Virus record (IMG/VR): IMGVR_UViG_3300008117_001142
Location: 1-24,689 of that record
From: a virus
Length of the DNA: 24,689 bases
Reading direction: 5' to 3' (one strand)
Shown: piece by piece, positions 4,353-23,489 of the stretch
How positions within the stretch are numbered: the first letter of the stretch is position 1
Layout of the letters: every line of letters begins with the position of its first letter
Translations under genes and position numbers: made by a program
Notes under the pieces: generated by a model
Told to the model about the DNA's origin: nothing
Databases searched by the model: none
The model's input: the letters and a program-made list of their open reading frames with translations, nothing else

Positions 4353-6656
4353 ATGATGTCATTAAAAATTAAAAAAAGAAATGGTGAGGACGTATCATTC
4401 AATCCTCAAAAAATCTATAATCGAGTTAAACGTGCTGCTAAAGGTTTGAACGTAAACTCTGATGAAATATTCATCAAGGTTATTACGTCAGTACCAACTG
4501 AAGGACTTATCACAACTAAAGAGTTGGATAAGTTGGTTTATGAAATTGCTGCGGCGTACACTGGTAGTCATCACGACTACTCAAGACTTGCATCGTCGGT
4601 TGCAATTTCTTCTTACCACAAAGAAACCAATGATAGTTTCTGTGAGACTATTATGGAATTACATTCGACAGGTGTCTTGTTGAAGACACCTCAAGGTAAA
4701 GTAATTGAAAGACCACAACACATGTATATGAGAGTTGCGTTGTGGGTTACAAAATCATTTGAACAAGCGGTTGAGTATTACCACTCATTGTCTAATCAAC
4801 TCATTTCACCAGCTACACCAATCATTATCAATTCAGGAACCAAAGTTCCTCAGTTGGCGTCTTGTGTATTACACTACAACAATGATGATTCACGTAATGG
4901 TTTATTACATACCTTGAATGATATATCAACATATTCTTCAGACGCGGCAGGTATTGGATTAGCAATGTCTAATATCAGAAGTAAAGAAAGTCGTATCAAT
5001 TCGTCAGGTGGATTTGCGGGTGGATTGTTAAAGTATTTGAAAATTGTTAATGAGTCATTAAGATTCTTTAACCAACAAGGAAGACGACCTGGTAGTGCGG
5101 CTATCTACATTGAACCATGGCACAAAGATGTTATGGACCTATTGGATATCAAAAAGAATACAGGTGCTGAAGAATTGAGAGCAAGAGATTTGTTCACGGC
5201 TCTTTGGATTCCTGATAACTTCATGAGAGCGGTAAGAGAAAGTAGTGATTGGTATTTGTTCTGTCCTAACGACATTATCAAAGCGGGCATTAAACCACTT
5301 CAAGAATGTTATGGTGATGAGTACGAAACAAATTACAACAAAGCGGTTGAGTTAGGTCTTGGTAAAAAAGTTAAAGCTCAAGACGTTTGGACTAAGATTA
5401 TCGAATCACAAGTTGAAACTGGTGTTCCTTACTTATGTTCTAAAGACAATGCTAACAAGAAAACTAACCATCAGAATATAGGTGTGATTAAACAATCAAA
5501 CCTTTGTAATGAGATTTACCAATACACCGATGAGAAGACTACAGCAATCTGTACATTATCTTCAATGGTATTGAAAAACTTTATTAATAAAGGTGAGTTT
5601 AATTTCGACTTACTTTATAATGAGGTGAGAAAAGTTGTTAGAGCTCTTAACAAAGTTATTGACATTAACAGTTACTCAACTGAAAAGGGTAGAAAAGGTG
5701 GATTGGACCAAAGAGCAATTGCAATTGGTACTCAAGGATTGGCTGACGTATTCTATTTGATGGATTACATCTTTACATCAGAAGAAGCTAAGAAATTAAA
5801 TAAAATGATTTTTGAAACAATCTACTTCGCAGCTATCACTGAAAGTATGGAGTTGTGTAAGTCAGGTGAATACAAACCTTACGCTCACTTTGAAGGTTCA
5901 CCAATGTCAAAAGGTATATTCCAATTTGATATGTGGGGATTGGATTATGAAGGATTAGGTGGTTTATGGGATTGGGATAGTCTTAAATTAGAAGTATCTA
6001 ACCATGGAGTATGTAACTCATTATTTACGGCTCAGATGCCTGTGGCGTCTTCGGCGAAAATTACAGGTTCATATGAAATGACAGAACCAGCTCACTCAGC
6101 AATCTTTAACAGACGAGTTGTTGGTGGTGAAATCATGATTGTAAACAAATACTTAATTAACGACTTTGAAAAGATGGGTATTTGGTGTGAGGATTTGAAA
6201 AATGAAATCATCTTAAATGAAGGGTCAATTCAAAACATCAACTTCAACAACTACCTTGATACTGAAGACAAAAACTATACTAAGAAAGTTAAAAGAATTG
6301 AACACTTGATTAGTAAGTACAAAACAATTTGGGAGATTTCACAAAGAGAATTGATTAACATGGCTGCTGATAGAGCACCGTTTATTGACCAATCACAATC
6401 AATGAACATTTACATGGCTAATCCAACATTGTCTAAGATTACCTCATCACACTTCCACTCATGGGAAAAAGGTTTGAAGACATTATGTTATTATGTTAGA
6501 ACTAAAGCGATTTCAACAGGAGCTAAACACTTAGCGGTTGACATATCAAAAGTACAACAACCTAAAGTTAAAGTTGAAACACCTAAAGTTGAGTTACACG
6601 AACTAACACAGAAACCTGAAGACAGTCCTTTTGAATGTTTTGGATGTAGTTCCTAA
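4353..6656 (+). CDS. nrdA: Ribonucleoside-diphosphate reductase class Ia, large (alpha) subunit
   Basis: The catalytic subunit of class Ia ribonucleotide reductase, 767 residues. It has an N-terminal ATP-cone (about 1-90; KIKKRNGEDVSFNPQKI), which usually gives overall dATP control. The active-site thiols are C171 (QLASCVLHY), C385 within the finger-loop motif SNLCNEI (383-387), and C400 (AICTLSS). The 15-residue gap between the last two matches the eukaryotic enzyme rather than the 23 of E. coli. The redox-shuttle pair is at the extreme C-terminus, ECFGC (C762, C765). GRRPGSAAIYIEPWH and MPVASSAKITGS are further conserved blocks. It starts with two consecutive ATG codons at 4353 and 4356, and an intrinsic terminator follows directly, making it the last gene of the replication operon. 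Confidence 0.96.
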   Translation: MMSLKIKKRNGEDVSFNPQKIYNRVKRAAKGLNVNSDEIFIKVITSVPTEGLITTKELDKLVYEIAAAYTGSHHDYSRLASSVAISSYHKETNDSFCETIMELHSTGVLLKTPQGKVIERPQHMYMRVALWVTKSFEQAVEYYHSLSNQLISPATPIIINSGTKVPQLASCVLHYNNDDSRNGLLHTLNDISTYSSDAAGIGLAMSNIRSKESRINSSGGFAGGLLKYLKIVNESLRFFNQQGRRPGSAAIYIEPWHKDVMDLLDIKKNTGAEELRARDLFTALWIPDNFMRAVRESSDWYLFCPNDIIKAGIKPLQECYGDEYETNYNKAVELGLGKKVKAQDVWTKIIESQVETGVPYLCSKDNANKKTNHQNIGVIKQSNLCNEIYQYTDEKTTAICTLSSMVLKNFINKGEFNFDLLYNEVRKVVRALNKVIDINSYSTEKGRKGGLDQRAIAIGTQGLADVFYLMDYIFTSEEAKKLNKMIFETIYFAAITESMELCKSGEYKPYAHFEGSPMSKGIFQFDMWGLDYEGLGGLWDWDSLKLEVSNHGVCNSLFTAQMPVASSAKITGSYEMTEPAHSAIFNRRVVGGEIMIVNKYLINDFEKMGIWCEDLKNEIILNEGSIQNINFNNYLDTEDKNYTKKVKRIEHLISKYKTIWEISQRELINMAADRAPFIDQSQSMNIYMANPTLSKITSSHFHSWEKGLKTLCYYVRTKAISTGAKHLAVDISKVQQPKVKVETPKVELHELTQKPEDSPFECFGCSS

Positions 6657-6734: not shown

Positions 6735-7205
6735 ATGGCAGATGGAATTACTTATGGTATAAATTTTCCCTTTAGGGATTCTAGACGTGGTGATTATTTA
6801 GAACTTACAGAATTAGAATCTCAGGAAATTAAAGCCGACTTGATACATTTATTATTAACAAGAAAAGGTTCAAGATATTACTTACCTCAATTTGGTACAA
6901 GACTATATGAATTCCTTTTTGAGCCATTTGATGGTTTAACATTTAATGCGATTGAATCCGATATTAGAGATGCAATTGAAACATTTATGCCAAACTTGTT
7001 GGTTAATAGTTTAAGTATCACACCAGCAGACGCCCAAGAAGAAGTTGATATTGCAACAGGACAAAATATCGTAGGTTCAAGTGAATCATCAATTTACAGA
7101 TTTCCTGGTAAAGGTACATCTGAATATACTGCAAAAATAAGATTAGATTACTCAACCAACGGGTCAACATACGGACAGAGTGATTTTGTAATTATCAATA
7201 TTTAA
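6735..7205 (+). CDS. 25: Baseplate wedge protein, gp25-like (GPW/gp25 family)
   Basis: A 156-residue member of the GPW/gp25 family, which in contractile tails forms part of the inner baseplate wedge and primes sheath assembly. The family core lies at about 22-66: a helix (EIKADLIHLLLTRKG), then YYLPQFGTRLYEFLFEP, matching the usual 'lllT..GeR...p.fG..l...lFep' pattern. The C-terminal part (about 85-156) has alternating strands, with an insert around 98-115 that makes it a little longer than T4 gp25 (132). The start is ATG 6735, first gene after the terminator, without a Shine-Dalgarno sequence. The gp6 homologue follows five bases later, an expected partner in the wedge. Confidence 0.88.
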   Translation: MADGITYGINFPFRDSRRGDYLELTELESQEIKADLIHLLLTRKGSRYYLPQFGTRLYEFLFEPFDGLTFNAIESDIRDAIETFMPNLLVNSLSITPADAQEEVDIATGQNIVGSSESSIYRFPGKGTSEYTAKIRLDYSTNGSTYGQSDFVIINI

Positions 7206-7210
7206 TATAA

Positions 7211-9049
7211 ATGGCAAATAATAGAATATCGTACGCTACTAGAGATTATCAGTCAATTAGAACTGAACTCTTAAATTATACAAGAACATACTATCCTGAC
7301 TTAATTCAGGATTTTAATGATGCATCGGTATTCTCAGTATTTATCGATTTGAACGCAGCAATTGCGGACAACTTACATTACAACATCGACCGAAGTGTAC
7401 AAGAGACAGTATTACAATATGCACAACAAAGGTCATCCATTTACAATATAGCCCGAACTTATGGTTTAAAATTGCCAGGACAAAGACCATCGGTCGCCTT
7501 AGTTGATTTTTCAGTTACGGTTCCTGCATTTGGTGATAAAGAAGATGAGAGATATCTTGGTACTTTATTAAGAGGTTCACAAGTTGTTGGTGCGGGGGTT
7601 GTATTTGAAAATGTTTATGATATTGATTTTGCGTCACCGTACAACGCTCAAGGTTTCCCAAATAGATTGAAGATTCCTAATTTTAATTCTAACGGAATAC
7701 TTGTTAACTACACAATTACAAAAAGAGAAATTGTTGTTAATGGAATTACCAAAGTATTCAAAAGAGTTATCAGTGCAAATGATGTTAAACCCTTCTTTGA
7801 ATTGTTCTTACCTGAAAAGAATGTGTTAGGTATTACAAGCGTGTTATTAAAAAACGGAACTCAATATACAAACATACCAACCACAGCCGAATTTTTAGGT
7901 GCTGAGAATAGATGGTACGAGGTGGATGCATTGGCTGAAGATAGAGTGTTTATTGAAGACCCGACCAAAGTCTCAGACCAACCTGGTATCAAAGTAGGTA
8001 GATATATTCAAACACAAAATAGATTTATTACTGAATATACTCCTGAAGGATTTAAGAAAATGACTTTTGGTGGTGGTACGAACACTGCTCAAGACCAATT
8101 GAATCAATTCACGACTTTAGGTACAACATTAGAATTACAAAAGTATTCAAATAACTTCTCATTAGGTTCAACACTAACACCTAATTCAACATTGTTTATT
8201 CAATATAGAGTTGGTGGTGGTTTGGCGACAAACTTGGGAACTAATGTAATCAATCAGATTGGTACGGTATCTTTCTTTGTTAATGGTCCTTCAGAAACAA
8301 CAAACTCTGCGGTAATCAACTCATTAAGATGTGTTAACGTAACTGCCGCGGTAGGTGGAGCAGGACTTCCATCATTAGAGGAAATTAGAAATTATGTATC
8401 ATTTAACTTTGCGGCTCAGAAAAGAGCAGTAACAGTACAAGATTATGAATCAATCATTAGAAACATGCCAGCTCAATTTGGTGCACCTGCAAAGGTATCC
8501 ATTACTGAAAACGACAATAAAATTTTAATTCAAATATTATCTTATGATACGTCAGGTAAATTAACAAATATTGTGTCAAACACTCTAAGACAGAATATTG
8601 CCAACTACCTATCAAACTATCGTATGATGAACGATTACATATCAATATTCAGTGCTGAGGTTATTGACTTGAGTGTTGATGTTTCAATTGTTTTGGACTC
8701 GGCACAAAATTCAGGACAAGTAATTTCAAGTGTTATTGATAAAGTATCTGCGTACTTTAACCCACAAACAAGACAATTGGGTCAAAACGTATATCTGTCG
8801 GAGATTAGAAGTATTATTCAAAATACAAATGGGGTGTTAACAGTTGCGGGATTAGAAGTGTTCAATGAGGTTGGGGGTCAATACTCTTCAGCTGAAACAT
8901 CAATGGAATATTCAGACCCAGAACTTAAATTAATTGCTCCTGTTGACGACACAATCTTTGCTCAACCATCTCAGGTATATCAAATTAGATATCCTGGTAA
9001 AGACATCCGAGTTTCAGTTAAAAACTTCCAATCAATTACTTTCTCTTAA
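7211..9049 (+). CDS. 6: Baseplate wedge protein, gp6-like (baseplate J family)
   Basis: A 612-residue homologue of T4 gp6 (660 residues), the protein that forms the ring of dimers joining baseplate wedges. The N-terminus is diagnostic: YATRDYQSIRTELLNYTRTY, then DFNDASVFSVFIDLNAAIAD, close to the 'YasrDf.siR.el...y.....Df.d.s.g..liel.a...d' pattern of gp6/baseplate J proteins. A baseplate J-like middle region includes NYVSFNFAAQKRAVTVQDYE (about 395-415), typical for this family, followed by a domain with FNPQTRQLGQNVYLSEI. The gene starts at ATG 7211 right after the gp25 gene. A 92-base gap with a large palindrome follows. Confidence 0.9.
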   Translation: MANNRISYATRDYQSIRTELLNYTRTYYPDLIQDFNDASVFSVFIDLNAAIADNLHYNIDRSVQETVLQYAQQRSSIYNIARTYGLKLPGQRPSVALVDFSVTVPAFGDKEDERYLGTLLRGSQVVGAGVVFENVYDIDFASPYNAQGFPNRLKIPNFNSNGILVNYTITKREIVVNGITKVFKRVISANDVKPFFELFLPEKNVLGITSVLLKNGTQYTNIPTTAEFLGAENRWYEVDALAEDRVFIEDPTKVSDQPGIKVGRYIQTQNRFITEYTPEGFKKMTFGGGTNTAQDQLNQFTTLGTTLELQKYSNNFSLGSTLTPNSTLFIQYRVGGGLATNLGTNVINQIGTVSFFVNGPSETTNSAVINSLRCVNVTAAVGGAGLPSLEEIRNYVSFNFAAQKRAVTVQDYESIIRNMPAQFGAPAKVSITENDNKILIQILSYDTSGKLTNIVSNTLRQNIANYLSNYRMMNDYISIFSAEVIDLSVDVSIVLDSAQNSGQVISSVIDKVSAYFNPQTRQLGQNVYLSEIRSIIQNTNGVLTVAGLEVFNEVGGQYSSAETSMEYSDPELKLIAPVDDTIFAQPSQVYQIRYPGKDIRVSVKNFQSITFS

Positions 9050-9141: not shown

Positions 9142-12100
9142 ATGGGTCAATCATATAGAATAAGGACTGAGTTAGGTATTAGTAAAACTATTAATGTACA
9201 GTTAGACCAAGAGTTTGAACAGTTAGAGATTTTATCTTTAAAAATACAACAGGAGGATATCTACATAAGAAGTTGTGCTGATTACGGAGTAATTGTTGGT
9301 AGGGTTACCGCTAACAACGGATTCGGATTACCCAATGCTCGAGTGTCTATATTCATCCCAATTACAAATATTGATGAATCAAACCCAATAATTTCAAGTA
9401 TATACCCTTACAAATCCCCAACAGATAAAAATGAGGATGGTTATAGGTATAATTTATTACCTTATGAAAAATCATATTCCGCTCACGCCGCTACAGGTAC
9501 ATTACCATCAAGATTAGATGCGTTGACGGGAAATACCGCGGTTGAAATATACGACAAATATTACAAGTTCACCGCAAAAACAAATGATAGCGGGGATTAT
9601 ATGATTATGGGTGTCCCACTTGGGTTTCAAACTGTGGTAATGGATGTGGACTTATCTGATATAGGTGAGTTTTCATTAACACCACAAGATTTAATTAGAA
9701 TGGGGTTGGCAACTGAATCACAAGTTGCTGGTAATAGATTTAGAAGTTCAAATGATATTAACTCATTACCTCAAATTATTAACTTAGTTAAAAATTTAGA
9801 AATTTCACCACTATGGGGTGACCCTGGTATTTGCGATATTGCGATTAATCGACTTGATTTTGATTTAAGGGATGATGCCAATGTTAACATACAACCCACA
9901 TCGGTTTTCATGGGTTCAATATACTCCACTTCTGATGAATTTAGAGTTAAACGAACTGCAAGACCAAAAGATAACATGGGTAATTTGTGTTCTCTACAGA
10001 CAGCACCTGGTCAAATTCTTGCAATAAGACAAACAATATATCAAGATAGTGATGGAAATCCAACATTAGAAGAATATGAATTAGAACAATCAGGTAACGT
10101 TATTGACGGAGATGGAACATGGTTAACAGAATTACCAATGAACTTGGATTATTATATTACAAATGAGTTTGGTGACAAAGTGGTATCGAATGACCCTGAT
10201 ATAGGTATACCAACAAAGGGTAAATATAGATTTAAAATTAAATGGACCCAACCAACCGCACTAACGGAGCAAACAAGAAGACCTTATTACTTGGTTCCTA
10301 ACGTTAGAGAATATGGTTGGTCAAATACTGAAAGTGACCCAGTAAATTCTGGTATTTCATCGGTTCAAAAACGATTAGCGGGTTCATATTATTTTGGTTT
10401 AGATTGGACAGGTTATACTAATGTAAACGCGGCGATTGCTTGTGAAGACACTTTTTATCAATTTGACTATAATAAAGTGTATACCGTTGCTGGACTTATA
10501 GATGAATTTAAAAATGGAGGTAGAGGTAGATTTATTGGTATTAAAGAAATTGATAGTAATGATTGTGATGCGACAATCAACAAATTTCCAGTAAATGAAG
10601 GATTTAGAAATTTTGACTTAATTTACTTTTTATTTTCAATATTATTTACAATCATACAATATATTGGGATTCCCATATTAGTTGCGTATCATATTGTTGC
10701 GTGGATTAAAAACTTATTTAATAATAATTTATTAAAGGTTTTGTTATGGCCGCTTTGGTTATTAACGTTACCTATACGTTTATTAACTCCAAATATTGAT
10801 TATATAAAATTACCAATGATTACATATCCTGAATGTCAGGCATGTAACTGTGGAGATACTAAATCCCAATCAACTAATACCCCAAATATTGCATCTCTTT
10901 TATCAACACCAATTGAAACGGGAGTATTAACTCAAGTCTCTAATTCACAATTATATTACAATAAATTAACTGAACAATTTAGTACTGATTTAAGTACTAC
11001 AATTTCACAAGCAATATCAACTAATAGTGCACAACCTAATAATCCACAACTTTTTAAAACAGCTAAAAGTTCACCTGTAAACTTTTTTGAATACTCAATT
11101 CAAAAACAGACCTTACCTATTGGTGAGAGAATAAATGTGTTTAACACTAGAAATAAATATTTTGAAGGTGTTAATAAAATTAAAGTAACTTTTGCATCTG
11201 AAAATAACTTAACATATCACTACGATAATACATTAACGGTATTATCAACACAAAGTTTTCCTGCGGGTACCTTGTTGAGTTTTATTGCTCCTGAAAAAAC
11301 TACAGATAAAAATTATTTATGGAGTGGTACTACGCCATCGGGAGCCGTTTTAAAGGGTATTAATGGAATTATTCAAACTAATGAGTTTACGATTAATGTT
11401 GAATATGCTGACCCATCAAATACAAATAATAATTTAAATACAGTATATACAATACCTGCACAAACAAATGTCACTTGTGTTGATAGTATCACCGTTGATG
11501 TTACAAGTTTGGGTACTATAATATACGGTGATTGTTCAGGTGGTAGTAATACTTATGATGCGTTATCATTGGGTGTACAAACAATAACAAATGATAATTG
11601 TATTACGTTAGGTACATTTAACGGTACTGCAACATTTAATTTAATTAATAGTGGAAACACTTGCCAAAGATATACTTACCCATCAGATATTGAATACTAT
11701 CAAGTATTAACCGCAATTACTATTACAACAACAACTGTTAATGGTGTTACAATACCTATTGTGCCAAATTCTGCTAATTCTGGTGGTTTTTATGAAGGGG
11801 TATTAAGACAAAATAGTATTATTGAAAATTACGAAAAACAAATTATTGGGTATCCTGGAAATGCCGCAACTTTAGAAAGTACGGTTACTTTGAATCCTAC
11901 CGATTATATGGATGGATTCACGGACCAAGTAATATTAATTTTACAAAGAGGAGTTGACCCATATTCCCCATTATTAACCAATAAATATTCTATTGGTACT
12001 TTGTTTGGTACAGATGAAAATGATGTTAATTGGACATTTACCGCATCGACAAGGGTTAATATACCCATACAAAAAATACCAAATGGTTCTCCAACTTCGG

Positions 12101-13521
12101 TACCTCAACACAATACTCAAAATAATATTTATTTCCAATCACATTTTTATACCCCTGGTGTTGTGGGGTCTACCACACCAGGTTTACAGTATTCGTCATA
12201 CACTACAAGCAATGTTGGGTACTATGGTGCACTTGATGGAATTTCGACAAATAGGTATGTAGTAGTTCCTGGTTCAACATATAACTCTTCTTCCCTTATT
12301 AATCAAACTCCAGTGTATGGCACATCTAAAGGGGTGTCAACTAAAACTACAAACGTGTATTATGAAAGTGCTGTTTCAGTAAATGATTATGATATTGCTG
12401 AGGATTTATCAGGAGGTGCAATATTGTTCGGTAACCCTTTAACTGAATATCCTGCAACCACATCTACACAAGTAAGTTATAGTCCGTTTGGTACGATTTA
12501 TTTTAGTCCTATTTTATATCCATCATTAACAGGGGCTAGTCAACTTAATATTACAGGATACTCAAAAAATGTGATGAGAACTGATAGACTACCGTCATCG
12601 GATTACATTGATAGTAATAATTTAAGAGGTAATGTTAGTTTATTACAACAAAATCTTGGGTTTGCTGTTTATGCGTATGATAATGAAGGAGTGGAGTATA
12701 TTGCACCAGGATTTTCAACAGGTGCTTCTCAGGCAACCGCAAATATTGATGGACAATTAGCGTCTATAAACGTTATTGAAACTTTAGGTAGTTGTCAGAA
12801 TTTGGTTGGTTTAGGATGTTATGAAGGTGACGGAACAACTTTTGGAATTAAATCAAATTGTTCAGATGGTGCTACGGTTGAAGCTGGTTGTTATATCTTT
12901 GTCCAAGACCCTTTAAAAGATTTAATAAAAGATATTAAAAATTTCGCTGAGTGGGGTTACAGATTTAGATTTTTCTATGGTTTATGTCGAGGAGTTCTAT
13001 CACAAACCTTTACGAACAATTGGGTTAATGGTTCCTTGTATATGTTCCCAATCCAAGTGGATACTTATTTTAATGATAAAAACCAAGCATTACCACCTGA
13101 ATTTGTAAAAGAATTGGTTTATTTTGATAGTGATACTAATAATTTTTACTATCGAAGTTCACCATATCTTTCAGGCTCAACGACGCAAAGATTTATTGGA
13201 AGACCAACCACAGGTTTAATTAGACCAACTAATCAGAGAAATTTATTATTCCCAACAACAATTATTAATATGGGTATGAAGGATGATTTTTATGGCGAAA
13301 TAAATTATGAACCATCATCCAAAGGGTATATAATGAACAATCTAAACCCTACTAGTTATTCTGATACATCTGATTTGGTTAATTTGTTTGTAATTTCCAG
13401 AATAACTAATAGTAAATTTTTATTTGGTTTACCTACTAATAAAGTCTTCCGACCCAGTGGTTATTTTAGGTCCTCCAACTTCACCAACAATGGGTATTTT
13501 CTTTTCATCAACCACGTTTGA
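9142..13521 (+). CDS. Very large baseplate/tail structural protein with hydrophobic hairpin
   Basis: A 1459-residue protein, the largest in the window, placed among baseplate genes; I do not recognise a named homologue. The N-terminal region (about 47-165) resembles carboxypeptidase-regulatory/Ig-like folds: VIVGRVTANNGFGLPNARV, then TNDSGDYMIMGVPLGFQTV. Residues 494-522 and 530-549 form two strongly hydrophobic segments separated by a short basic/Asn turn, like a membrane hairpin, followed by a CxxCxC motif (C565, C568, C570). A long Thr/Asn/Ser-rich beta region follows. A Cys-rich patch lies at about 1215-1247, then FRFFYGLCRGVLSQT. It starts at ATG 9142 behind a palindrome and a promoter-like box. 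The frame ends in GTT-TGA-T, and the +1 frame continues smoothly, so the true product may be longer. Virion location is inferred from context. Confidence 0.8.
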   Translation: MGQSYRIRTELGISKTINVQLDQEFEQLEILSLKIQQEDIYIRSCADYGVIVGRVTANNGFGLPNARVSIFIPITNIDESNPIISSIYPYKSPTDKNEDGYRYNLLPYEKSYSAHAATGTLPSRLDALTGNTAVEIYDKYYKFTAKTNDSGDYMIMGVPLGFQTVVMDVDLSDIGEFSLTPQDLIRMGLATESQVAGNRFRSSNDINSLPQIINLVKNLEISPLWGDPGICDIAINRLDFDLRDDANVNIQPTSVFMGSIYSTSDEFRVKRTARPKDNMGNLCSLQTAPGQILAIRQTIYQDSDGNPTLEEYELEQSGNVIDGDGTWLTELPMNLDYYITNEFGDKVVSNDPDIGIPTKGKYRFKIKWTQPTALTEQTRRPYYLVPNVREYGWSNTESDPVNSGISSVQKRLAGSYYFGLDWTGYTNVNAAIACEDTFYQFDYNKVYTVAGLIDEFKNGGRGRFIGIKEIDSNDCDATINKFPVNEGFRNFDLIYFLFSILFTIIQYIGIPILVAYHIVAWIKNLFNNNLLKVLLWPLWLLTLPIRLLTPNIDYIKLPMITYPECQACNCGDTKSQSTNTPNIASLLSTPIETGVLTQVSNSQLYYNKLTEQFSTDLSTTISQAISTNSAQPNNPQLFKTAKSSPVNFFEYSIQKQTLPIGERINVFNTRNKYFEGVNKIKVTFASENNLTYHYDNTLTVLSTQSFPAGTLLSFIAPEKTTDKNYLWSGTTPSGAVLKGINGIIQTNEFTINVEYADPSNTNNNLNTVYTIPAQTNVTCVDSITVDVTSLGTIIYGDCSGGSNTYDALSLGVQTITNDNCITLGTFNGTATFNLINSGNTCQRYTYPSDIEYYQVLTAITITTTTVNGVTIPIVPNSANSGGFYEGVLRQNSIIENYEKQIIGYPGNAATLESTVTLNPTDYMDGFTDQVILILQRGVDPYSPLLTNKYSIGTLFGTDENDVNWTFTASTRVNIPIQKIPNGSPTSVPQHNTQNNIYFQSHFYTPGVVGSTTPGLQYSSYTTSNVGYYGALDGISTNRYVVVPGSTYNSSSLINQTPVYGTSKGVSTKTTNVYYESAVSVNDYDIAEDLSGGAILFGNPLTEYPATTSTQVSYSPFGTIYFSPILYPSLTGASQLNITGYSKNVMRTDRLPSSDYIDSNNLRGNVSLLQQNLGFAVYAYDNEGVEYIAPGFSTGASQATANIDGQLASINVIETLGSCQNLVGLGCYEGDGTTFGIKSNCSDGATVEAGCYIFVQDPLKDLIKDIKNFAEWGYRFRFFYGLCRGVLSQTFTNNWVNGSLYMFPIQVDTYFNDKNQALPPEFVKELVYFDSDTNNFYYRSSPYLSGSTTQRFIGRPTTGLIRPTNQRNLLFPTTIINMGMKDDFYGEINYEPSSKGYIMNNLNPTSYSDTSDLVNLFVISRITNSKFLFGLPTNKVFRPSGYFRSSNFTNNGYFLFINHV

Positions 13522-13990
13522 TTTACAAAATAAAGATTATTTAACTCCAGGGGTTATTAACTTTAGACCGACACCTGGAGCTAATGCAATTACATATCCA
13601 TATGGAATTAAATCACAGTATGTGCCATTCTATCAATGGGAGTTAAAACAAGAATACACTCCAAATATTTTTGGTTCTCAATTTAATAATTGGAAAACAA
13701 ATCAAGATTCTAATATTAATGTTAGTGGTATTTTTGGGTTTAATTATCAATCTTTAGATAGAAGAAATATTGACCCGCCAACTTATTTTGTTGGTTCTAA
13801 TAATACTAATGATATATACCAAAGAGGGTATATTTTTAATGTTAACTCAAGTGGTGGTTATTCATATAGTATGGGAGGTGTCCCATCAAGCAAATTTTTA
13901 GTTAGTGCTCCATTCCATTTTTACTTTGGAATTAAAAAGGGTCTGACGGCATTGGATAAATTTAAAACGAAATATTCGATAAGTGAATAA
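13490..13990 (+). CDS. Structural protein, or +1 continuation of the 1459-residue protein
   Basis: This frame is open from 13406 to 13990 and overlaps the end of the preceding gene. The only ATG that could start it near its beginning is at 13490, giving 166 residues and a 32-base overlap; a TTG lies at 13424. Alternatively it is not a separate gene: skipping the T at 13519 turns the upstream GTT-TGA-T into GTT-GAT and continues as DLQNKDYLTPGVINFRPTPG. The sequence is rich in Asn, Tyr, Gly and Ser like its neighbours, with no motif I recognise. It ends with a short overlap into the next gene. The frame is clearly coding; the start is uncertain. Confidence 0.6.
   Translation: MGIFFSSTTFDLQNKDYLTPGVINFRPTPGANAITYPYGIKSQYVPFYQWELKQEYTPNIFGSQFNNWKTNQDSNINVSGIFGFNYQSLDRRNIDPPTYFVGSNNTNDIYQRGYIFNVNSSGGYSYSMGGVPSSKFLVSAPFHFYFGIKKGLTALDKFKTKYSISE
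13516..13522 (+). other. Candidate +1 frameshift or indel site, GTT-TGA-T
   Basis: In the upstream frame the codons are GTT then the stop TGA followed by T. Omitting T13519 gives GTT-GAT and enters the downstream open frame, as UGA-U/C does in release factor 2 and antizyme genes. No upstream Shine-Dalgarno-like stimulator is visible. The shift could also be an indel anywhere in 13406-13521, where both frames are open. Confidence 0.35.
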
Positions 13991-15671
13991 GTATACTATC
14001 ATACCAAGTAGTCAGGAATATAAGTCAGCTCCATTTGTTGACCAAGATATTAGTGTGACTTTAGAACAACAATCACAATTAATTGTTGAATATGACCGAA
14101 GTCAAAGTATTAATCTTGCACAGGTTTTTGATGATGAAAGACAGGCTAGTTCAACATTTAGACCAACCTTTAAAGTAAACTATATCTATGCGAATACATA
14201 CACTGGTACTACAGGATATATCCCATTTAGAAATAATTTATTTTATATTGACCCAATACAATCTACGGTTAATGGTATATGGAAAGGATTTCCTCAATTC
14301 TACGAATTTGATTTTTATAGGCCACGAATAACTGACCAACACATTGATTACAAACCAAAAAGTGCTTACACATACAATTGGACCTATTATATTAGTCATG
14401 CGTATAGTAATGATAATACAAAACAATTATCGTATGAGTTAAATAATAGTTCATATGATTGGATAGCGTCTGAAGGAATACCGTTTTCGATTATTAATAG
14501 AACTCAAAATGGAAGTAATGTAATATCATTTCAGTGTATTGCTCCTCATGGTTTATCGGTTGGTGAATATGTTGAGTTATCTTTCTTTTATAACCAAATA
14601 AACTTATTCCAAGTATATTCTTTGGGTAATAATGAATTTGATAGTGAGGAATATATTTTTAGTATTTATAATTTTGGATATACAGGTACAACATTTGCTA
14701 ATGGGGTTACAGGTATATTTAAAAGGGTTATTAACCCTGATAACATTACCGAAACAAAATCTGAATATTATATAAGACAACATAAAATATTAACAGATGT
14801 TGATGGTGTGGTAATAACCAAAAATGGATTTGAAAAGAACGTGTTTGGTGAAGAAAAACAATTTGAATATAGTTCGATAACTCCAAATAACGTATCAAGG
14901 ATTTCACAAAAGACAAGTAGTAATTCTTATAACGTAACAGTTGCGAATGACATCAATTTATTTGGTGTGTTAGATAATCAAGGTAGACCTGTAACTGAAT
15001 TGTTTTTAACTATTATCAATAAAGGATATTCAGGTTATTTTAATCAACCAAATAATAATATTGGTTTAAAACAAGGGTGGGAGTTTAATATAACTTCGCC
15101 TGTAAGTGCTTGGTGGGATTTACAAAATAATTTTTCAGATACTAATATACCAACATCAAACTACACATTAACTAATGGTGTAACTAAAACTTTCTACTAT
15201 AATCAAGATTTGAAAGAAGGGGATATAATTGACGGGGATTTTTGTGAATGGAATGACTATGACCAAATTGAAAGAGTTATATCACCGTATTATCAGAAAA
15301 TTAATTATAATCAGAATGTGTTCCAAACCACAAGTTTGTACGATACAAATAGTCCAGGATTTTACTATAAACCACATACCTCAATGACTATTAGAGTATT
15401 CTCCGATTATGTTGAGACGGCGAATGTTGGACAGGTTGATAATGTACCATTCTATTCATACTATTCAAACTCGGACCAACAATTTAGATGGAGGGATTTA
15501 TATAGTTACGGTTTTAGAGATAATTTAGAACGAGGTGTGGACTATCCATTTTTGAATAGTGCCCAATATCCATTTAAAGAATTAACTTTTAGGTTAATAC
15601 CTGAAGGTATAAATTACAACACACTTGGTGTTGAATTCCCAATTAAACCATTGATAGATGAGTGTGAATAA
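13983..15671 (+). CDS. Unknown tail/baseplate structural protein (562 aa)
   Basis: A 562-residue protein rich in Tyr, Phe, Asn and Ser and predicted by eye to be mostly beta. I recognise no named family. The segment IAPHGLSVGEYVELSFF (about 187-203) resembles the 'PHGLsvGd.V' motif common in phage tail and baseplate proteins. Later blocks include EYYIRQHKIL and FYYNQDLKEGDIIDGDFCEW. The chosen start is a GTG at 13983 that overlaps the preceding stop by eight bases; no ATG lies near this end of the frame. The 3' end overlaps the next gene by 14 bases. Tight overlaps imply translational coupling within one structural operon. Confidence 0.72.
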   Translation: MNKYTIIPSSQEYKSAPFVDQDISVTLEQQSQLIVEYDRSQSINLAQVFDDERQASSTFRPTFKVNYIYANTYTGTTGYIPFRNNLFYIDPIQSTVNGIWKGFPQFYEFDFYRPRITDQHIDYKPKSAYTYNWTYYISHAYSNDNTKQLSYELNNSSYDWIASEGIPFSIINRTQNGSNVISFQCIAPHGLSVGEYVELSFFYNQINLFQVYSLGNNEFDSEEYIFSIYNFGYTGTTFANGVTGIFKRVINPDNITETKSEYYIRQHKILTDVDGVVITKNGFEKNVFGEEKQFEYSSITPNNVSRISQKTSSNSYNVTVANDINLFGVLDNQGRPVTELFLTIINKGYSGYFNQPNNNIGLKQGWEFNITSPVSAWWDLQNNFSDTNIPTSNYTLTNGVTKTFYYNQDLKEGDIIDGDFCEWNDYDQIERVISPYYQKINYNQNVFQTTSLYDTNSPGFYYKPHTSMTIRVFSDYVETANVGQVDNVPFYSYYSNSDQQFRWRDLYSYGFRDNLERGVDYPFLNSAQYPFKELTFRLIPEGINYNTLGVEFPIKPLIDECE

Positions 15672-17610: not shown

Positions 17611-18519
17611 ATGGCAATAGGTTCATACGGCACAATTAGACCTTCAGATGTTTCACCTGAAGATGTACAAATAATAATGAATTACACTCCATCAAGGGAT
17701 GTTACGGATAACTTTACCCTAACCCAACTTGACGCACAAACAATTCTTAAGCCTTACTTCAACAATACTCAAACAGGTGGAAATGCTGGTGTTGAGGTAT
17801 TGGGTGGACTATATAATTTAACATTACCTGCAGAGCAATTCAACGCTCTTGGAATCTATACATTGTATTTGAGACCAGCGCAGATTAGAACAAGAATTAC
17901 TGATTGTGGTGTGTTAAATGCGTTACCAAACGTAAAAGGTATTATTATTGATATTACAAATGTACCAACACAGTACCAAAACAAATTTGTACCACAAGGG
18001 TTGGTTGGTTTTAGAATAGAATATCTAAATCCCGATGGTTCAAAGATACCAAATTTCTTTAGAGTTGTTACCTCATCGTTCTTTTGTGAACCAGTTGTAA
18101 CAAATGAAACAAACACAACTCAAAAAAGTATTAGATACAGATATGTTGAGGGTAATTCTAATTTAATATTCTTAACATTATCACCATCTTCATCGCCAAC
18201 AAACAATCCAAATGCAACACCGTTTATTGGACAACCAAACCAAAACATTATAATCTCAAATACCTATTTCAATCCAATTACTTTGGAAATTGAAATGGTT
18301 GAGTACGACGTATCGTCTCTTGCAATTGCTCTTTATGGTAATCAAACCAAATCAATTGATGATGGTATCTATACAATCTATGACTCTCAAAATAACATAT
18401 ACAGACAATACAACTTATATGAAATTAGAGACCAATTTAATGCGTTACTTTACGAGGTTAGACAAAGTAGAGGTAATAACATTGACTTCAGTAAAAACTT
18501 CACAAATATAACAACTTAA
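17611..18519 (+). CDS. Unknown tail/baseplate structural protein (302 aa)
   Basis: A 302-residue protein with no family I can name. The N-terminus MAIGSYGTIRPSDVSPEDVQ is followed by a region with a conserved look (about 55-150: YNLTLPAEQFNALGIYTLYL, then RIEYLNPDGSKIPNFFRV). The middle has a Ser/Pro/Asn-rich linker (about 191-205), and the C-terminus is a charged, probably helical segment (about 265-290). No signal peptide or transmembrane segment is visible. It follows a promoter-like box and precedes the KGTRR-motif gene with a one-base TAATG overlap, so it probably belongs to the same assembly. Confidence 0.75.
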   Translation: MAIGSYGTIRPSDVSPEDVQIIMNYTPSRDVTDNFTLTQLDAQTILKPYFNNTQTGGNAGVEVLGGLYNLTLPAEQFNALGIYTLYLRPAQIRTRITDCGVLNALPNVKGIIIDITNVPTQYQNKFVPQGLVGFRIEYLNPDGSKIPNFFRVVTSSFFCEPVVTNETNTTQKSIRYRYVEGNSNLIFLTLSPSSSPTNNPNATPFIGQPNQNIIISNTYFNPITLEIEMVEYDVSSLAIALYGNQTKSIDDGIYTIYDSQNNIYRQYNLYEIRDQFNALLYEVRQSRGNNIDFSKNFTNITT

Positions 18520-20456
18520 TGGCGGTAAATACCAAAAATACTAAATTCTTTTACCCACCAAGACCAGGTAGTGGTGCAGGTACTTTCTCTGACAACATTG
18601 TAGGATTACAAACTGTTGAAGGTGGAGGACTTACGCAAGGTAATTTTGAGTTTACCACAGGTGTTACAGAAAAAGTTAATAGAACATTCAATGTCGGAGC
18701 TTTCTCCGAACCTATGACGTTGGATTCTATGAACATTGACAGTCTTGAAGAGAGTCGAAGAATATTAGCAACTCAATTTAGAGTTTACCCTAACTTTGAT
18801 ATTACCCAAGTTCTTAATTTCTCAATGTATGGTTCCCTATCTGAAAGATTTAGGGTTTCAATTACTAAGATTATTAATTATTTTCCAGCATCTTTAGACG
18901 TTCAGTTTGCTAATGGTAATTATGTAACTGGAAATACTGCATATGATATTGTTTATGATGTTCAAAATGACGAAACATATTTTAAAGTAAATGTTAATAG
19001 TATTAAAAACCCATTTGATATTGATTATTCAGTTAGTGCCACAACTAATTTGGCGATAAGAGAAATAGTTTCATCTAAGTATAGAAATTTAACTGAGACT
19101 TATTTGGATTATTGTATTAGTATTAATGATAACATATTCAAAATATTAGCTTTTGTTCCATCTCAAACATTATCTTCAGGTGAACTAACATTTTATGTTT
19201 CAGGAGCTCCGTTTGGTACGACCGCAACAACAATCAACGATGAATACCAGATTAGACCTAATGACTATATAGTTGACAAGTCCTTTCAAGAAGATTTTGA
19301 TGAAGTTGAAAAGTTTTTATTGAATAGATTAGTTAGACCTGAATACACTGCGGTATTCCAAGTACCTGCACAAAATGAATATGGTCAGACTTATACGAAT
19401 TACCAACAAGTGACTTGGCCAAAAAATGGTCCGTGGAACTTAGATATTAGTTCGTTTTTATTCGATAATTATTTGGAGCAAATTCAAGCGATTGCGGTAG
19501 AATTAGATTCATTTAAAACAAATTTAATTTCAAGATTCTTAGTTTCAGATTCATTAAAAGAATTTGATACTTTAGGTAGAAAAGTTGAAAAGATATTTCA
19601 AATTTACGGTAGAAGTTTCGACCAAATAAAACAATTTATTGAAGGATTAGCTTACATGAATTCTGTAAACTATAATCCATCAAACGATATACCATCACAG
19701 TTATTAGTTAATTTATCTCAAACTTTAGGATGGTCATCTAATTTCTCACCAATTACAAATGAAGATTTCTTATCGTCTGTATTTGGTAACACTGCCACAC
19801 CAACTTATCCTGGATATGCCAGAGCTTTAACACCTACAGAATTAAATTATGCTTATTATAGAAACTTAATTCTTAACGCTTCTTATCTTTTCAAATCAAA
19901 AGGTACAAGAAGGTCTGTTGAGTTTTTATTAAGATTAATTGGTGCACCTGATTCTTTAATTGAATACAACGAACACATTTATTTGGCCGACCAAAAAATT
20001 AATTTAGACCAATTCTATACTCAATGGGCTCAAATTTCAGGTGGAACATATGTTCAAGAAACACCAACATATGCTGTAGGCCAAACATATAGTATTCACG
20101 GTCAAATATTTACGGCATTTACAACAAATGCTACATACCAAGATGTGAATATCACATTAGAGAATTACCCAATAGATTTTGAGGGTTATCCAAACGCACC
20201 TGTTAATACTGAAAATTATTTCTTCCAAATCGGTGCAGGTTGGTATGAACAAACTCCACAACATAGAAGTCCTGACGAGGTTACGATTACAGGAAATGTG
20301 TTTACAGGTCAAAATTTTAATATCCAAACACAATTACAACCATTCACATATGGTCAGACTTATTTAAATAGATTTAGAGATTTCCCTTACATGACTGAAG
20401 GGTTTAAACTTCAGAAGATTGTTGATAATAATAAGTCAACAATCAAGAAACTATGA
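18519..20456 (+). CDS. Baseplate/tail protein with gpI-like 'KGTRR' motif
   Basis: A 645-residue structural protein. Residues about 455-480 read YLFKSKGTRRSVEFLLRLIG, resembling the 'l.r.kGT...l...l...g' motif of phage tail protein I and related baseplate wedge components. That suggests a wedge position comparable to P2 gpI or part of T4 gp7, but the similarity is local. Upstream there is a helical, charged region (about 325-385). The start ATG overlaps the previous stop (TAATG). The frame ends in CTA-TGA-T; the +1 frame continues as DYPIPESGLTVGY with no ATG for a further 130 bases or so. The protein is therefore probably either split or longer than this frame. Confidence 0.75.
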   Translation: MAVNTKNTKFFYPPRPGSGAGTFSDNIVGLQTVEGGGLTQGNFEFTTGVTEKVNRTFNVGAFSEPMTLDSMNIDSLEESRRILATQFRVYPNFDITQVLNFSMYGSLSERFRVSITKIINYFPASLDVQFANGNYVTGNTAYDIVYDVQNDETYFKVNVNSIKNPFDIDYSVSATTNLAIREIVSSKYRNLTETYLDYCISINDNIFKILAFVPSQTLSSGELTFYVSGAPFGTTATTINDEYQIRPNDYIVDKSFQEDFDEVEKFLLNRLVRPEYTAVFQVPAQNEYGQTYTNYQQVTWPKNGPWNLDISSFLFDNYLEQIQAIAVELDSFKTNLISRFLVSDSLKEFDTLGRKVEKIFQIYGRSFDQIKQFIEGLAYMNSVNYNPSNDIPSQLLVNLSQTLGWSSNFSPITNEDFLSSVFGNTATPTYPGYARALTPTELNYAYYRNLILNASYLFKSKGTRRSVEFLLRLIGAPDSLIEYNEHIYLADQKINLDQFYTQWAQISGGTYVQETPTYAVGQTYSIHGQIFTAFTTNATYQDVNITLENYPIDFEGYPNAPVNTENYFFQIGAGWYEQTPQHRSPDEVTITGNVFTGQNFNIQTQLQPFTYGQTYLNRFRDFPYMTEGFKLQKIVDNNKSTIKKL

Positions 20457-21354
20457 TTACCCAATTCCTGAATCAGGTTTAACGGTTGGTTATCCTGTAC
20501 CAGGTGGAGTTGATTGGACGTATGTTGACCCCAAGCCTAAGAAGAAAACATTCTTTGAATTCTCCCAAACTTTTTGGCAGAATATGATTAACACTCGAAA
20601 CAGACAATACATCTCTGATGGTAAAACGGGTGGTTATCCTACATTACAATCTATTTGGTGGAAATACATTGAATCAGAACAAACTGTTGGATTACCTAAC
20701 AACAAGTACACTTATCAAAAGTTAATTGATTATGTGAACGGTATTGGTCCGTATTGGACTAAGTTGGTAGAACAAATGGTTCCAGCAACAACCATTTGGA
20801 ATGGTGGGGTTAGATTGGAAAACTCTGTGTTACACAAACAAAAGTTTGTTTATAGAAGACAAAGAGGATGTCAGTTTGTACCAGTTCCTGTTGACCCATG
20901 TTTCATTATTTCAAACATTTTTGACTATACATGTAGTACAGAATATGTTGATTTCAATATCTATCCATGGTTGAATGGTGACATTGCGGTTTCAAACTTT
21001 GACAGCATTTTGGCAAATAGAATCAACAACATGTTATCATCAAGCGGATTGACATTAACTCAATGTGACCAAAATTCAGTTCAAACTGAATGGTTTGTTG
21101 ACTTACGAATTGCTGGCGATATATTAATACAAGAAACATTCTATAATGGATATGGGTACGATGACGTTCCAACAAATACTGAATGGAGAAATGCTTTGAT
21201 AGATAATTTACCAACATTATACAACTACGGATATACTTACTTCTTAAATGGTAATGAATTAACAATAACCAATTTAAATTGTTTGCCTCAAAATTTACAA
21301 GAGACAGTGGTTTTAAATGTCGGAATAAATATTAATATAGATTGTAGTATATAA
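20419..21354 (+). CDS. Tail/baseplate structural protein, probable +1 continuation of the preceding gene
   Basis: This open frame (from 20395 to its TAA at 21352) is clearly coding but lacks a credible independent start. The only early candidates are TTG codons at 20419 and 20422, and the first ATG is at 20584. An ATG start there would remove TFFEFSQTFWQN, which looks like part of a compact aromatic region continuing as RNRQYISDGKTGGYPTLQS. The more likely reading is that it is the C-terminal part of the 645-residue protein, reached by a +1 shift at 20454. Other visible parts are KFVYRRQRGCQ (about 142-152), a Cys-containing stretch (C151, C160, C170), and a beta-rich C-terminal domain. It ends in a TAATG overlap with the SprB-repeat gene. 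Function unknown. Confidence 0.6.
   Translation: MLIIISQQSRNYDYPIPESGLTVGYPVPGGVDWTYVDPKPKKKTFFEFSQTFWQNMINTRNRQYISDGKTGGYPTLQSIWWKYIESEQTVGLPNNKYTYQKLIDYVNGIGPYWTKLVEQMVPATTIWNGGVRLENSVLHKQKFVYRRQRGCQFVPVPVDPCFIISNIFDYTCSTEYVDFNIYPWLNGDIAVSNFDSILANRINNMLSSSGLTLTQCDQNSVQTEWFVDLRIAGDILIQETFYNGYGYDDVPTNTEWRNALIDNLPTLYNYGYTYFLNGNELTITNLNCLPQNLQETVVLNVGININIDCSI
20451..20457 (+). other. Candidate +1 frameshift or indel site, CTA-TGA-T
   Basis: The upstream frame ends CTA-TGA and the next base is T. Skipping T20454 gives CTA-GAT and joins the downstream frame, which has no ATG of its own nearby. Both frames are open only between 20395 and 20456, so any indel must lie there. P-site slippage from CUA to UAU would pair poorly, which counts against a classical release-factor-2-type mechanism. 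Confidence 0.4.
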
Positions 21355-23489
21355 TGTCAGTTTTTAACTATAACATATCGGTAACGGGGGACTGTTCAAA
21401 CACTAATTCAGGTTCAATCAGTTTATTATTGACTGGTGGTACACCTCCTTACACAGTACAATGGTTAAGTCCTGTTTTATCTCCTGATATTGTAACTACA
21501 TTACCTGCGGTTAAGACAGGGTTAAGCGCCACAACATATGCGGTTAGGGTTAATGATAGTACCCTACCAACAAACTCTGAATTTTATATTAACATCCCCG
21601 TATCAAGTGGGGTGTGTGCTAGTATTGTATCTGTTGTAGATACGACGTGTGGAATTAATAATGGCTCTGTGACAGGAACCTCAACATCTGATTATTCATC
21701 AACCAATTTTTATTTATACCATGGGGATGGTGTATTTTCACAATCTGCAATTACCAACCAACAAACTGTTGTATTTGGTAGTTTAACTGCGGGAACATAT
21801 TATATGACGGTTGAAGATTTGGGTGGATGTACTGCACAAACTTCTAACTTCATTGTTGAAGATTCTCCGTCATTAAACTATGGATTATATGCCGTACCAA
21901 ACTCTTCTTGCGGTGGAAGTCCTATGGGTAAAATCATGATTACGGGATTGACAGGTCATCCACCTTTTAGTTATTCTTGGAGTACAAGTGCGACGGGGTC
22001 GACTGTAACAGGTTTAACTGCGGGGGTTTATTCTGTTGATGTTACCGATGGTTATGGGTGTGTTAAAACTGAGACGGCAACTATTAATGATATTGCTCCT
22101 CTTGGTTTTGGAACATTTACCGCAACCCAACCTACTTGTTTTTCTGCCAACGGTGTATTAACAATTCAGATTACGGGTGGAACTGCACCTTATTATTACT
22201 CTGCATCGACAGGGGATGTTGTTGTTCAATATGCAACAAGTTGGACATTGTCAGGGTTATCACCAGGTAATTATAGTATAAGTGTCACCGACGCAGGTTT
22301 ATGTACCTTTACTCAAGGAACCGTATTAACTTCGCCAAATGGAATAACTTCCGTAAGTATAAACACTCAAGGTTCTACATGTTCGAGTAGTGGTGGTACT
22401 ATTAGTGTCGCGGTTAATGGGGGAACATCGCCATATACTTATACATTAATTTACCCTAATGGTAATGTTTTAAATGTTGCCAATTCACAAACAAATCAAT
22501 TATTTTCTAATTTATATTCGGGAACATATACAGTTTCAGTTGCAGATGCTTCAGGTTGTTTTTATATGGATGAGGTTACTTTAATTGCGACAAATACATT
22601 CACAATTTCAACACAAACAACAGGTACGACTTGTAATCAAAATAATGGATACATAACTGTAACCAAAACAACTGGTGGTGAACCTCCATATGATTATTCA
22701 TTGGATGGTTTGGTAAATGTGTTGGATACTTCGCAATCGGCCGTGACATTCAATAATGTGTCTTCAGGTCAACATACAATTACGGTTACTGATAATACAG
22801 GTTGTACTCAGACATTACAAGTTTATGTGAATGAAAGTCCATCATTAAATTATAGCTTATATAATACATCTTGTGGTAATGGTTCAAATGGTTCAATAAC
22901 TGCATTTATTTCTTCAGGGGAACCTCCATTTACATATGTTTGGTCACCTAATGTACCAAACAACCCACAACAAATTCAAGTAAGTGGTCTTACTGCGGGA
23001 ACATACAATGTTACCATCATAGATAGTAATGGTTGTTCATTACAAAGATTTACCGATATTACTTGTGATGCAAATTACGCTTCTTATCAGACATATGTGA
23101 TGGGGTCGGAAGTGTTTAACATCCAATCACAAACAAAATATGGTTTGTTACAAATGTTAAATGATGGATTTGACGATTTAACATCGGGTAATACAAGTTG
23201 TAGTTTAATTTCTGCGACTTATACTGTGAATGTTTCGGTTAATCCGTTAGGTTTAACCGCGAGTGATACTTTCTTTACAACTACTTCATTAGTTGTTGCG
23301 CCAACTGATAATGAATACTATGACACGGTTGTTAGTTTGTTACAAACAATACCTGGTATTGGAAATGTTACTGTAGATGCAGGTAACAATCAAATAACAA
23401 TTGAGACAAATCCAAATAGTAATAGTTTGGATGGTCAAGAAATCATTGTTGAGTTATTAATCGTTTATGATACAATTTGTTTGACATGA
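21354..23489 (+). CDS. Tail adhesin with seven SprB-type repeat modules
   Basis: A 711-residue protein built from about seven Ig-like modules of the SprB-repeat type, known from Bacteroidetes gliding adhesins. Each full module starts near a TC or SC, continues with GGTPPYTYSW-like sequence, then a GLTAGTYSVTVTD-like strand, and ends with GC. Approximate modules are 1-75, 97-160, 184-236, 260-316, 341-402, 424-484 and 505-561; the first lacks the usual Cys pair. Module 3 (HPPFSYSWS, then LTAGVYSVDVTDGYGC) is the clearest. The C-terminal domain (565-711) is different and ends with a beta-rich region. There is no signal peptide, fitting a virion protein. It starts in a TAATG overlap. Likely role: exposed fibre or adhesin at the tail tip; the receptor is unknown. 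Confidence 0.85.
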   Translation: MSVFNYNISVTGDCSNTNSGSISLLLTGGTPPYTVQWLSPVLSPDIVTTLPAVKTGLSATTYAVRVNDSTLPTNSEFYINIPVSSGVCASIVSVVDTTCGINNGSVTGTSTSDYSSTNFYLYHGDGVFSQSAITNQQTVVFGSLTAGTYYMTVEDLGGCTAQTSNFIVEDSPSLNYGLYAVPNSSCGGSPMGKIMITGLTGHPPFSYSWSTSATGSTVTGLTAGVYSVDVTDGYGCVKTETATINDIAPLGFGTFTATQPTCFSANGVLTIQITGGTAPYYYSASTGDVVVQYATSWTLSGLSPGNYSISVTDAGLCTFTQGTVLTSPNGITSVSINTQGSTCSSSGGTISVAVNGGTSPYTYTLIYPNGNVLNVANSQTNQLFSNLYSGTYTVSVADASGCFYMDEVTLIATNTFTISTQTTGTTCNQNNGYITVTKTTGGEPPYDYSLDGLVNVLDTSQSAVTFNNVSSGQHTITVTDNTGCTQTLQVYVNESPSLNYSLYNTSCGNGSNGSITAFISSGEPPFTYVWSPNVPNNPQQIQVSGLTAGTYNVTIIDSNGCSLQRFTDITCDANYASYQTYVMGSEVFNIQSQTKYGLLQMLNDGFDDLTSGNTSCSLISATYTVNVSVNPLGLTASDTFFTTTSLVVAPTDNEYYDTVVSLLQTIPGIGNVTVDAGNNQITIETNPNSNSLDGQEIIVELLIVYDTICLT

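Follow-up and report, generated by a model that had tools for sequence, protein, structure and literature searches.

The question raised by this locus is why a very large protein encoded in a phage baseplate cluster should contain strongly hydrophobic segments followed by a cysteine motif. The window, meaning the whole stretch of 24,689 nucleotides analysed here (IMG/VR virus record IMGVR_UViG_3300008117_001142, positions 1 to 24,689), contains, as had been described, an open reading frame (ORF) of 1459 amino acids at 9142-13521, whose product is referred to as the giant; all of the features located within this gene are on the + strand. The stretch resembling a membrane helix and the cysteine motif of the giant may help the phage to cross the host membrane. 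The core observation of the preliminary description holds, and is stronger than at first reading, with two corrections: the gene is longer, and it is one hydrophobic segment, not a hairpin, that is conserved.

In the window protein, hydrophobic stretches at residues 490-522 and 530-548 are followed by the cysteines C565, C568 and C570. Hydrophobicity was judged by the Kyte-Doolittle and octanol scales alone. The best octanol 19-mer of the protein (-14.25) was equalled in 113 of 5000 shuffles, two segments at -14.0 and -13.0 or lower arose in five of 5000, and any CxxCxC in 12 of 5000. Counting against the observation, Kyte-Doolittle 19-mers of 1.6 or more are frequent by chance (1563 of 2000 shuffles). 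The single sequence is suggestive, and the case is carried by conservation among relatives.

Relatives were collected in four scans of IMG/VR. The first confirmed 442 of 453 matching stretches as relatives of the giant and the second at least 589 of at least 600, 80 stretches of each being retained for analysis; the two others, started from divergent members, confirmed 591 and 589 stretches out of 598 each and recovered the same family. The retained loci of all four scans held 286 matching ORFs, and 277 loci that read at least 170 residues beyond the NFD motif gave 161 distinct sequences. In all 161, the first hydrophobic segment (TM1; residues 490-522, 10609-10707) has an octanol score of -12.2 or lower, so that by this scale a conserved segment with the length and apolarity needed to cross a bilayer is present throughout, and all 161 have the motif PxCxxCxC. 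The nine ORFs set aside comprise six that were too short and three variants (L217, L220 and L237) in which the motif is NFN; read separately, the three also have TM1 and CxxCxC, together with about 120 hydrophobic residues. Under a laxer rule, the cysteine motif was found in 168 distinct sequences and was missing from only two, L112 and L133, both of which end too early. The membrane-like helix is preceded by the near-invariant motif NKFPVNEGFRNFD (residues 480-492, 10579-10617), and the invariant CxxCxC occupies residues 565-570 (10834-10851). The N-terminal half of the protein is conserved; every one of 65 aligned rows has cysteines 45, 231, 283, 475, 565, 568 and 570, and cysteine 434 is kept in at least 95% of them. 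The opposing possibility raised beforehand combined ordinary core helices with unconserved cysteines, and the cysteines are conserved. Among the 105 ORFs of at least 300 amino acids in the related 326-kb record G001, the strongest hydrophobic 19-mer is that of the giant.

The giant looks lineage-specific. A tblastn search of INPHARED gave no relative at E 1e-5 (the INPHARED and IMG/VR scans may omit records very close to the window), none of 154 hits of a peptide pattern in GTDB contigs encodes a relative, and PDB sequence searches with each half of the protein found nothing with an E-value of 1 or lower. A sub-threshold match to DUF1638 was regarded as chance. The neighbouring gp6-like gene leads to immuto, Mel-JY01 and LR756508, and a profile search of approximately 30 kb around gp6 in these three found no relative of the giant (best E 0.13). 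A protein of approximately 1300 amino acids in immuto and Mel-JY01 was rejected as a counterpart; this tail protein is instead remotely related (E 1e-8) to ORF J30 of G001, which corresponds to the 645/311-aa gene of the window.

The hairpin did not survive comparison as a conserved unit. Its second segment (residues 530-549, 10729-10788) is one version of a swappable module, and this version is limited to the small clade of the window, being common to the window and L001-L004 only; in L088 a weak stretch of similar kind scores -2.8. Other relatives have little at this place, or a cysteine-bearing loop, or different hydrophobic helices, and the flanks on either side of the variable module are strongly conserved. 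With L109, L088, L112 and L133 left outside the segment and module-type counts, 151 rows comprise 82 long modules, 47 Cys4 loops (CxxC, then C, then C), ten modules with two cysteines and 12 with none; the corresponding numbers for 70 representatives are 39, 20, five and six. A 19-mer of -6 or lower is contained in the module of 97 of 168 distinct sequences. Across the whole region, at a lax threshold, four of 113 distinct sequences have a single hydrophobic segment, 47 have two, 46 have three and 16 have four. On a tree of the 70 representatives, built from the part before the motif, module type requires 11 changes (minimum three, shuffled mean 27.5); modules with two and with four cysteines are a small step apart. 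These sequences point to a conserved membrane-like helix followed by a swappable module. Of the two fates first suggested for the hairpin, insertion in a membrane and burial in the baseplate, insertion suits the data better than an ordinary core helix does, since from one to four or more hydrophobic segments lie between strongly conserved flanks; a lipid-embedded domain is on this account likelier than a packed core, with which the changes of module type are hard to reconcile.

The assignment to a baseplate cluster is borne out by gene order. Upstream of the giant gene on the + strand are a gp25-like baseplate wedge gene (6735-7205; PF04965, E 2.5e-11; phrog_261, E 1.4e-17) and a gp6/Baseplate_J-like wedge gene (7211-9049; PF04865, E 1.4e-7; phrog_219, E 1.3e-24), and directly downstream on the same strand is a conserved gene of 562 amino acids (13983-15671). 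At those retained loci of the first two scans that have enough flank, some of which derive from one contig, the upstream genes are gp6 (142 of 142), gp25 (121 of 121) and nrdA (63 of 91), and the downstream genes are those of 562 (104 of 105), 369 (80 of 80) and 645 amino acids (69 of 69). The cluster is colinear in G001, where a tail sheath gene is present. The PHROGs and Pfam hits of the giant itself include no wedge family, gp7 not having been compared directly. That the giant should be a non-virion membrane protein, made during infection and encoded in the tail cluster, is very unlikely given its constant position at the testable loci, with gp6 on one side and other cluster genes on the other, and given a size and a beta-rich C-terminal half that resemble tail parts; this explanation draws on the failure of sequence searches to find a homologue of known structure.

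The reading favoured here, tentatively and with a little less than even confidence, is that the giant is part of the baseplate in a lineage of contractile jumbo phages of freshwater Bacteroidota, to which it is specific, and that its hydrophobic domain enters a host membrane during infection. In the virion, this domain would be shielded by the large protein domains of the giant, a logic drawn from effectors of the type VI secretion system, whose membrane helices travel shielded and insert later (PMC7773334). Sheath contraction would rearrange the baseplate and release the domain into one of the membranes of the host, the inner membrane being the likeliest; there it might anchor the tail or line a passage for DNA. 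The cysteines may stabilise the neck of the domain through a metal or disulfides, and replacement of the module could tune the domain to different host membranes.

Several observations weigh against membrane entry. The presence of the giant in the virion is inferred, not proven; the membrane helices were called from hydropathy scales and not by a dedicated transmembrane predictor; and in 71 of the 168 distinct sequences the module lacks a strong second segment. In the tape measure protein of TP901-1, hydrophobic regions could not be linked to membrane insertion, deletions having given no proof (PMC5099701). A predicted structure of residues 1-660 has a single long helix at 486-534 and no hairpin, but the model is too poor to decide (mean predicted local distance difference test score, pLDDT, of 42; 43 similar sequences). 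A conserved face on the TM1 helix was not significant, the conservation moment giving p 0.13 over residues 493-520, 0.60 over 493-510, 0.04 over 505-522 and 0.16 over 490-522. The single long helix would also suit a buried helical bundle that links several giant molecules within the baseplate without ever touching lipid. A virion protein must shield such a segment from water, and residues Q506, G509, L513 and H517 of TM1 are well conserved, as a bundle would allow; the repeated changes in the number of hydrophobic segments while the flanks are conserved, and the same helix-face test, make the bundle somewhat unlikely.

A membrane-like domain encoded in a baseplate-cluster gene could alternatively serve during assembly to fasten the giant, or the baseplate under construction, to the inner membrane of the infected host. 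The precedent is the thylakoid-anchored contractile injection system (tCIS) of Anabaena, in which the tail-fibre-like protein Cis13, with a predicted membrane helix, holds the device to the membrane together with a baseplate extension (PMC8894136). Like the giant, Cis13 is a baseplate-region protein of a contractile device with a putative membrane helix; it differs in being tail-fibre-like, in having a single predicted C-terminal helix and in anchoring within the producing cell (PMC8894136). A phage must leave the cell, so that such an anchor would need to be released, and the ~30 kb around gp6 in phages with a related gp6 yielded nothing related to the giant; an assembly anchor is accordingly quite improbable. 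In a literature search covering titles, the openings of abstracts and passages, with subscription journals mostly outside it, no phage baseplate protein with a comparable membrane domain was found, the Anabaena tCIS being nearest.

For entry into the host membrane, a close comparison is with tape measure proteins. The passage of DNA through the inner membrane is poorly understood for contractile phages, and membrane helices have been discussed in tape measure proteins (PMC5099701, PMC11948020, PMC10996793). Tape measure proteins with membrane helices are proposed to form an inner-membrane passage, diffocin having five helices per chain; those of T4 and T5 are predicted to contain hardly any transmembrane region or none at all, Pam3 being an exception (PMC10996793), and a hydrophobic stretch in T4 gp29 is mentioned elsewhere (PMC11948020). 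The giant resembles the tape measure proteins of TP901-1, diffocin and Pam3 in that a hydrophobic domain of membrane-like type, part of a tail protein, is proposed to extend to the inner membrane (PMC5099701, PMC10996793), but differs from them in gene place, in a composition that is not helix-rich and in having a single weak match to tape measure families of PHROGs (phrog_34923, E 0.027, in one of 43 N-terminal members and none of 40 C-terminal members). Instead of being mainly helical, the giant of G001 (J35) has by composition a helix-former fraction of 0.30 versus a sheet/loop-former fraction of 0.47, and the C-terminal model is beta-rich. No tape measure protein was identified among the ORFs of G001. 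Two very large ORFs lie near the sheath gene of G001, J46 (59319-67043), which has a weak tail-protein match to phrog_52, and J48 (67341-72467). A bolder and unlikely proposal is that, in a widespread lineage of uncultured jumbo phages of Gram-negative Bacteroidota, a giant baseplate protein has taken over membrane breaching from the tape measure protein. An unchanging helix for entry and a clamp of cysteines would then frame a cassette that evolution exchanges freely, with little in it, a loop with cysteines or additional membrane helices, in keeping with the membranes of the hosts. For this common lineage of lake phages, the conserved membrane-like domain of a baseplate-cluster protein is a further site at which to look, with a defined segment at residues 480-575. 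As for the cysteines, the disulfide network of the phage Milano indicates that tail disulfides can matter (PMC10811340). Milano and the giant both have conserved cysteines in a contractile baseplate; the Milano disulfides are seen in a structure and the giant is known from its sequence, and the available passages on Milano mention no membrane domain (PMC10811340).

The remainder of the giant contains further domains of less certain nature. A possible Ig-like domain resembling CarboxypepD_reg lies at residues 48-170 (9283-9651). The N-terminal Ig-like fold read beforehand agrees with weak CarboxypepD_reg matches (E 0.01 or less) in 31 of 43 members, the best of which (1.4e-4) is not that of the window, but three of the matching members score well under the curated cut-off of 32.3 bits (14.5-16.9 bits), and a fourth member had no match. 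The second cysteine patch (residues 1218-1282, 12793-12987) proved real, with C1218 in 98% of 65 rows, C1250 and C1282 in 95%, and C1226 and C1240 in 83%. In a predicted model of residues ~590-1661 of L002, the first 590 residues are confident and beta-rich (residues ~590-1180, 10909-12681) and the rest is poor. Foldseek gave no match for this C-terminal model at E 0.001 or less in PDB (best 1.4e-3) or BFVD, and VIA-align, which realigns the hits of Foldseek itself, gave at best a Z score of 4.2 over 55 residues. The missing structural match does not demonstrate a new fold, because 481 of the 1072 residues have pLDDT below 50 and VIA-align only realigns Foldseek hits. A second strongly hydrophobic stretch is present in the C-terminal half of L058-L060, L063 and L064 (~1029-1081) and of L120 (1020-1061).

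By gene arrangement, the virus is one of, or close to, the jumbo myophages of freshwater Bacteroidetes whose genomes carry a gene for ribosomal protein bS21. The 711-aa protein of the window (21354-23489) has six SprB repeats, a domain characteristic of surface proteins in Bacteroidota, and the best matches of the window NrdA are in Tenacibaculum and Cellulophaga phages (~39%); Bacteroidota hosts agree with both. Terminase is encoded in six of six large contigs carrying the giant, and bS21 is on the opposite strand to it, approximately 3.4 kb away, in five of the six (L186-L190), the bS21 gene of G001 (L190) being at 141706-141852; G003 carries the giant and gave no bS21 match. This evidence comes from the large contigs, as the window does not extend to the bS21 region. 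The same opposite placement of bS21 and terminase has been described for freshwater Bacteroidetes myophages of 293-331 kb (PMC9723584), so that habitat, a size of ~300-330 kb and this arrangement are held in common; the passages available on those phages do not mention the giant or a membrane domain (PMC9723584).

The gene end at 13521 had to be revised. At 13444/13445, L001, L002 and L003 each include 137 bp that the window lacks, and they read on, to a giant ORF of approximately 1661 amino acids in L001 and L002, whose DNA is ~99% identical to the window around the gene, and of 1624 in L003. The window ORF thus ends early because ~137 bp are missing there, with a change of frame: the first part of the gene (9142-13444) is in the frame of the relatives up to the break, and the C-terminal remainder (13445-13990) continues in another frame, within a listed ORF at 13424-13990, so that the protein had been read approximately 200 residues short. 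Both pieces match the single ORF J35 of G001, and relatives hold intact copies. Among 119 giant ORFs with start and stop within their locus, taken from the loci of the first two scans with the window left out and some loci coming from one contig, 118 have at least 1500 amino acids (median 1701), the exception being L112 with 532. The gap may be an assembly error or a true deletion. Elsewhere in the window, ORFs of 645 and 311 amino acids (18519-21354) match a single 996-aa ORF of G001, and ~149 bp present in L002 are absent from that region; nrdA (4353-6656) encodes 767 amino acids compared with 814 in G001, with ~122 bp absent near 4670 relative to L002. The three gaps, in the giant gene, the 645/311-aa gene and nrdA, hint at repeated assembly gaps.

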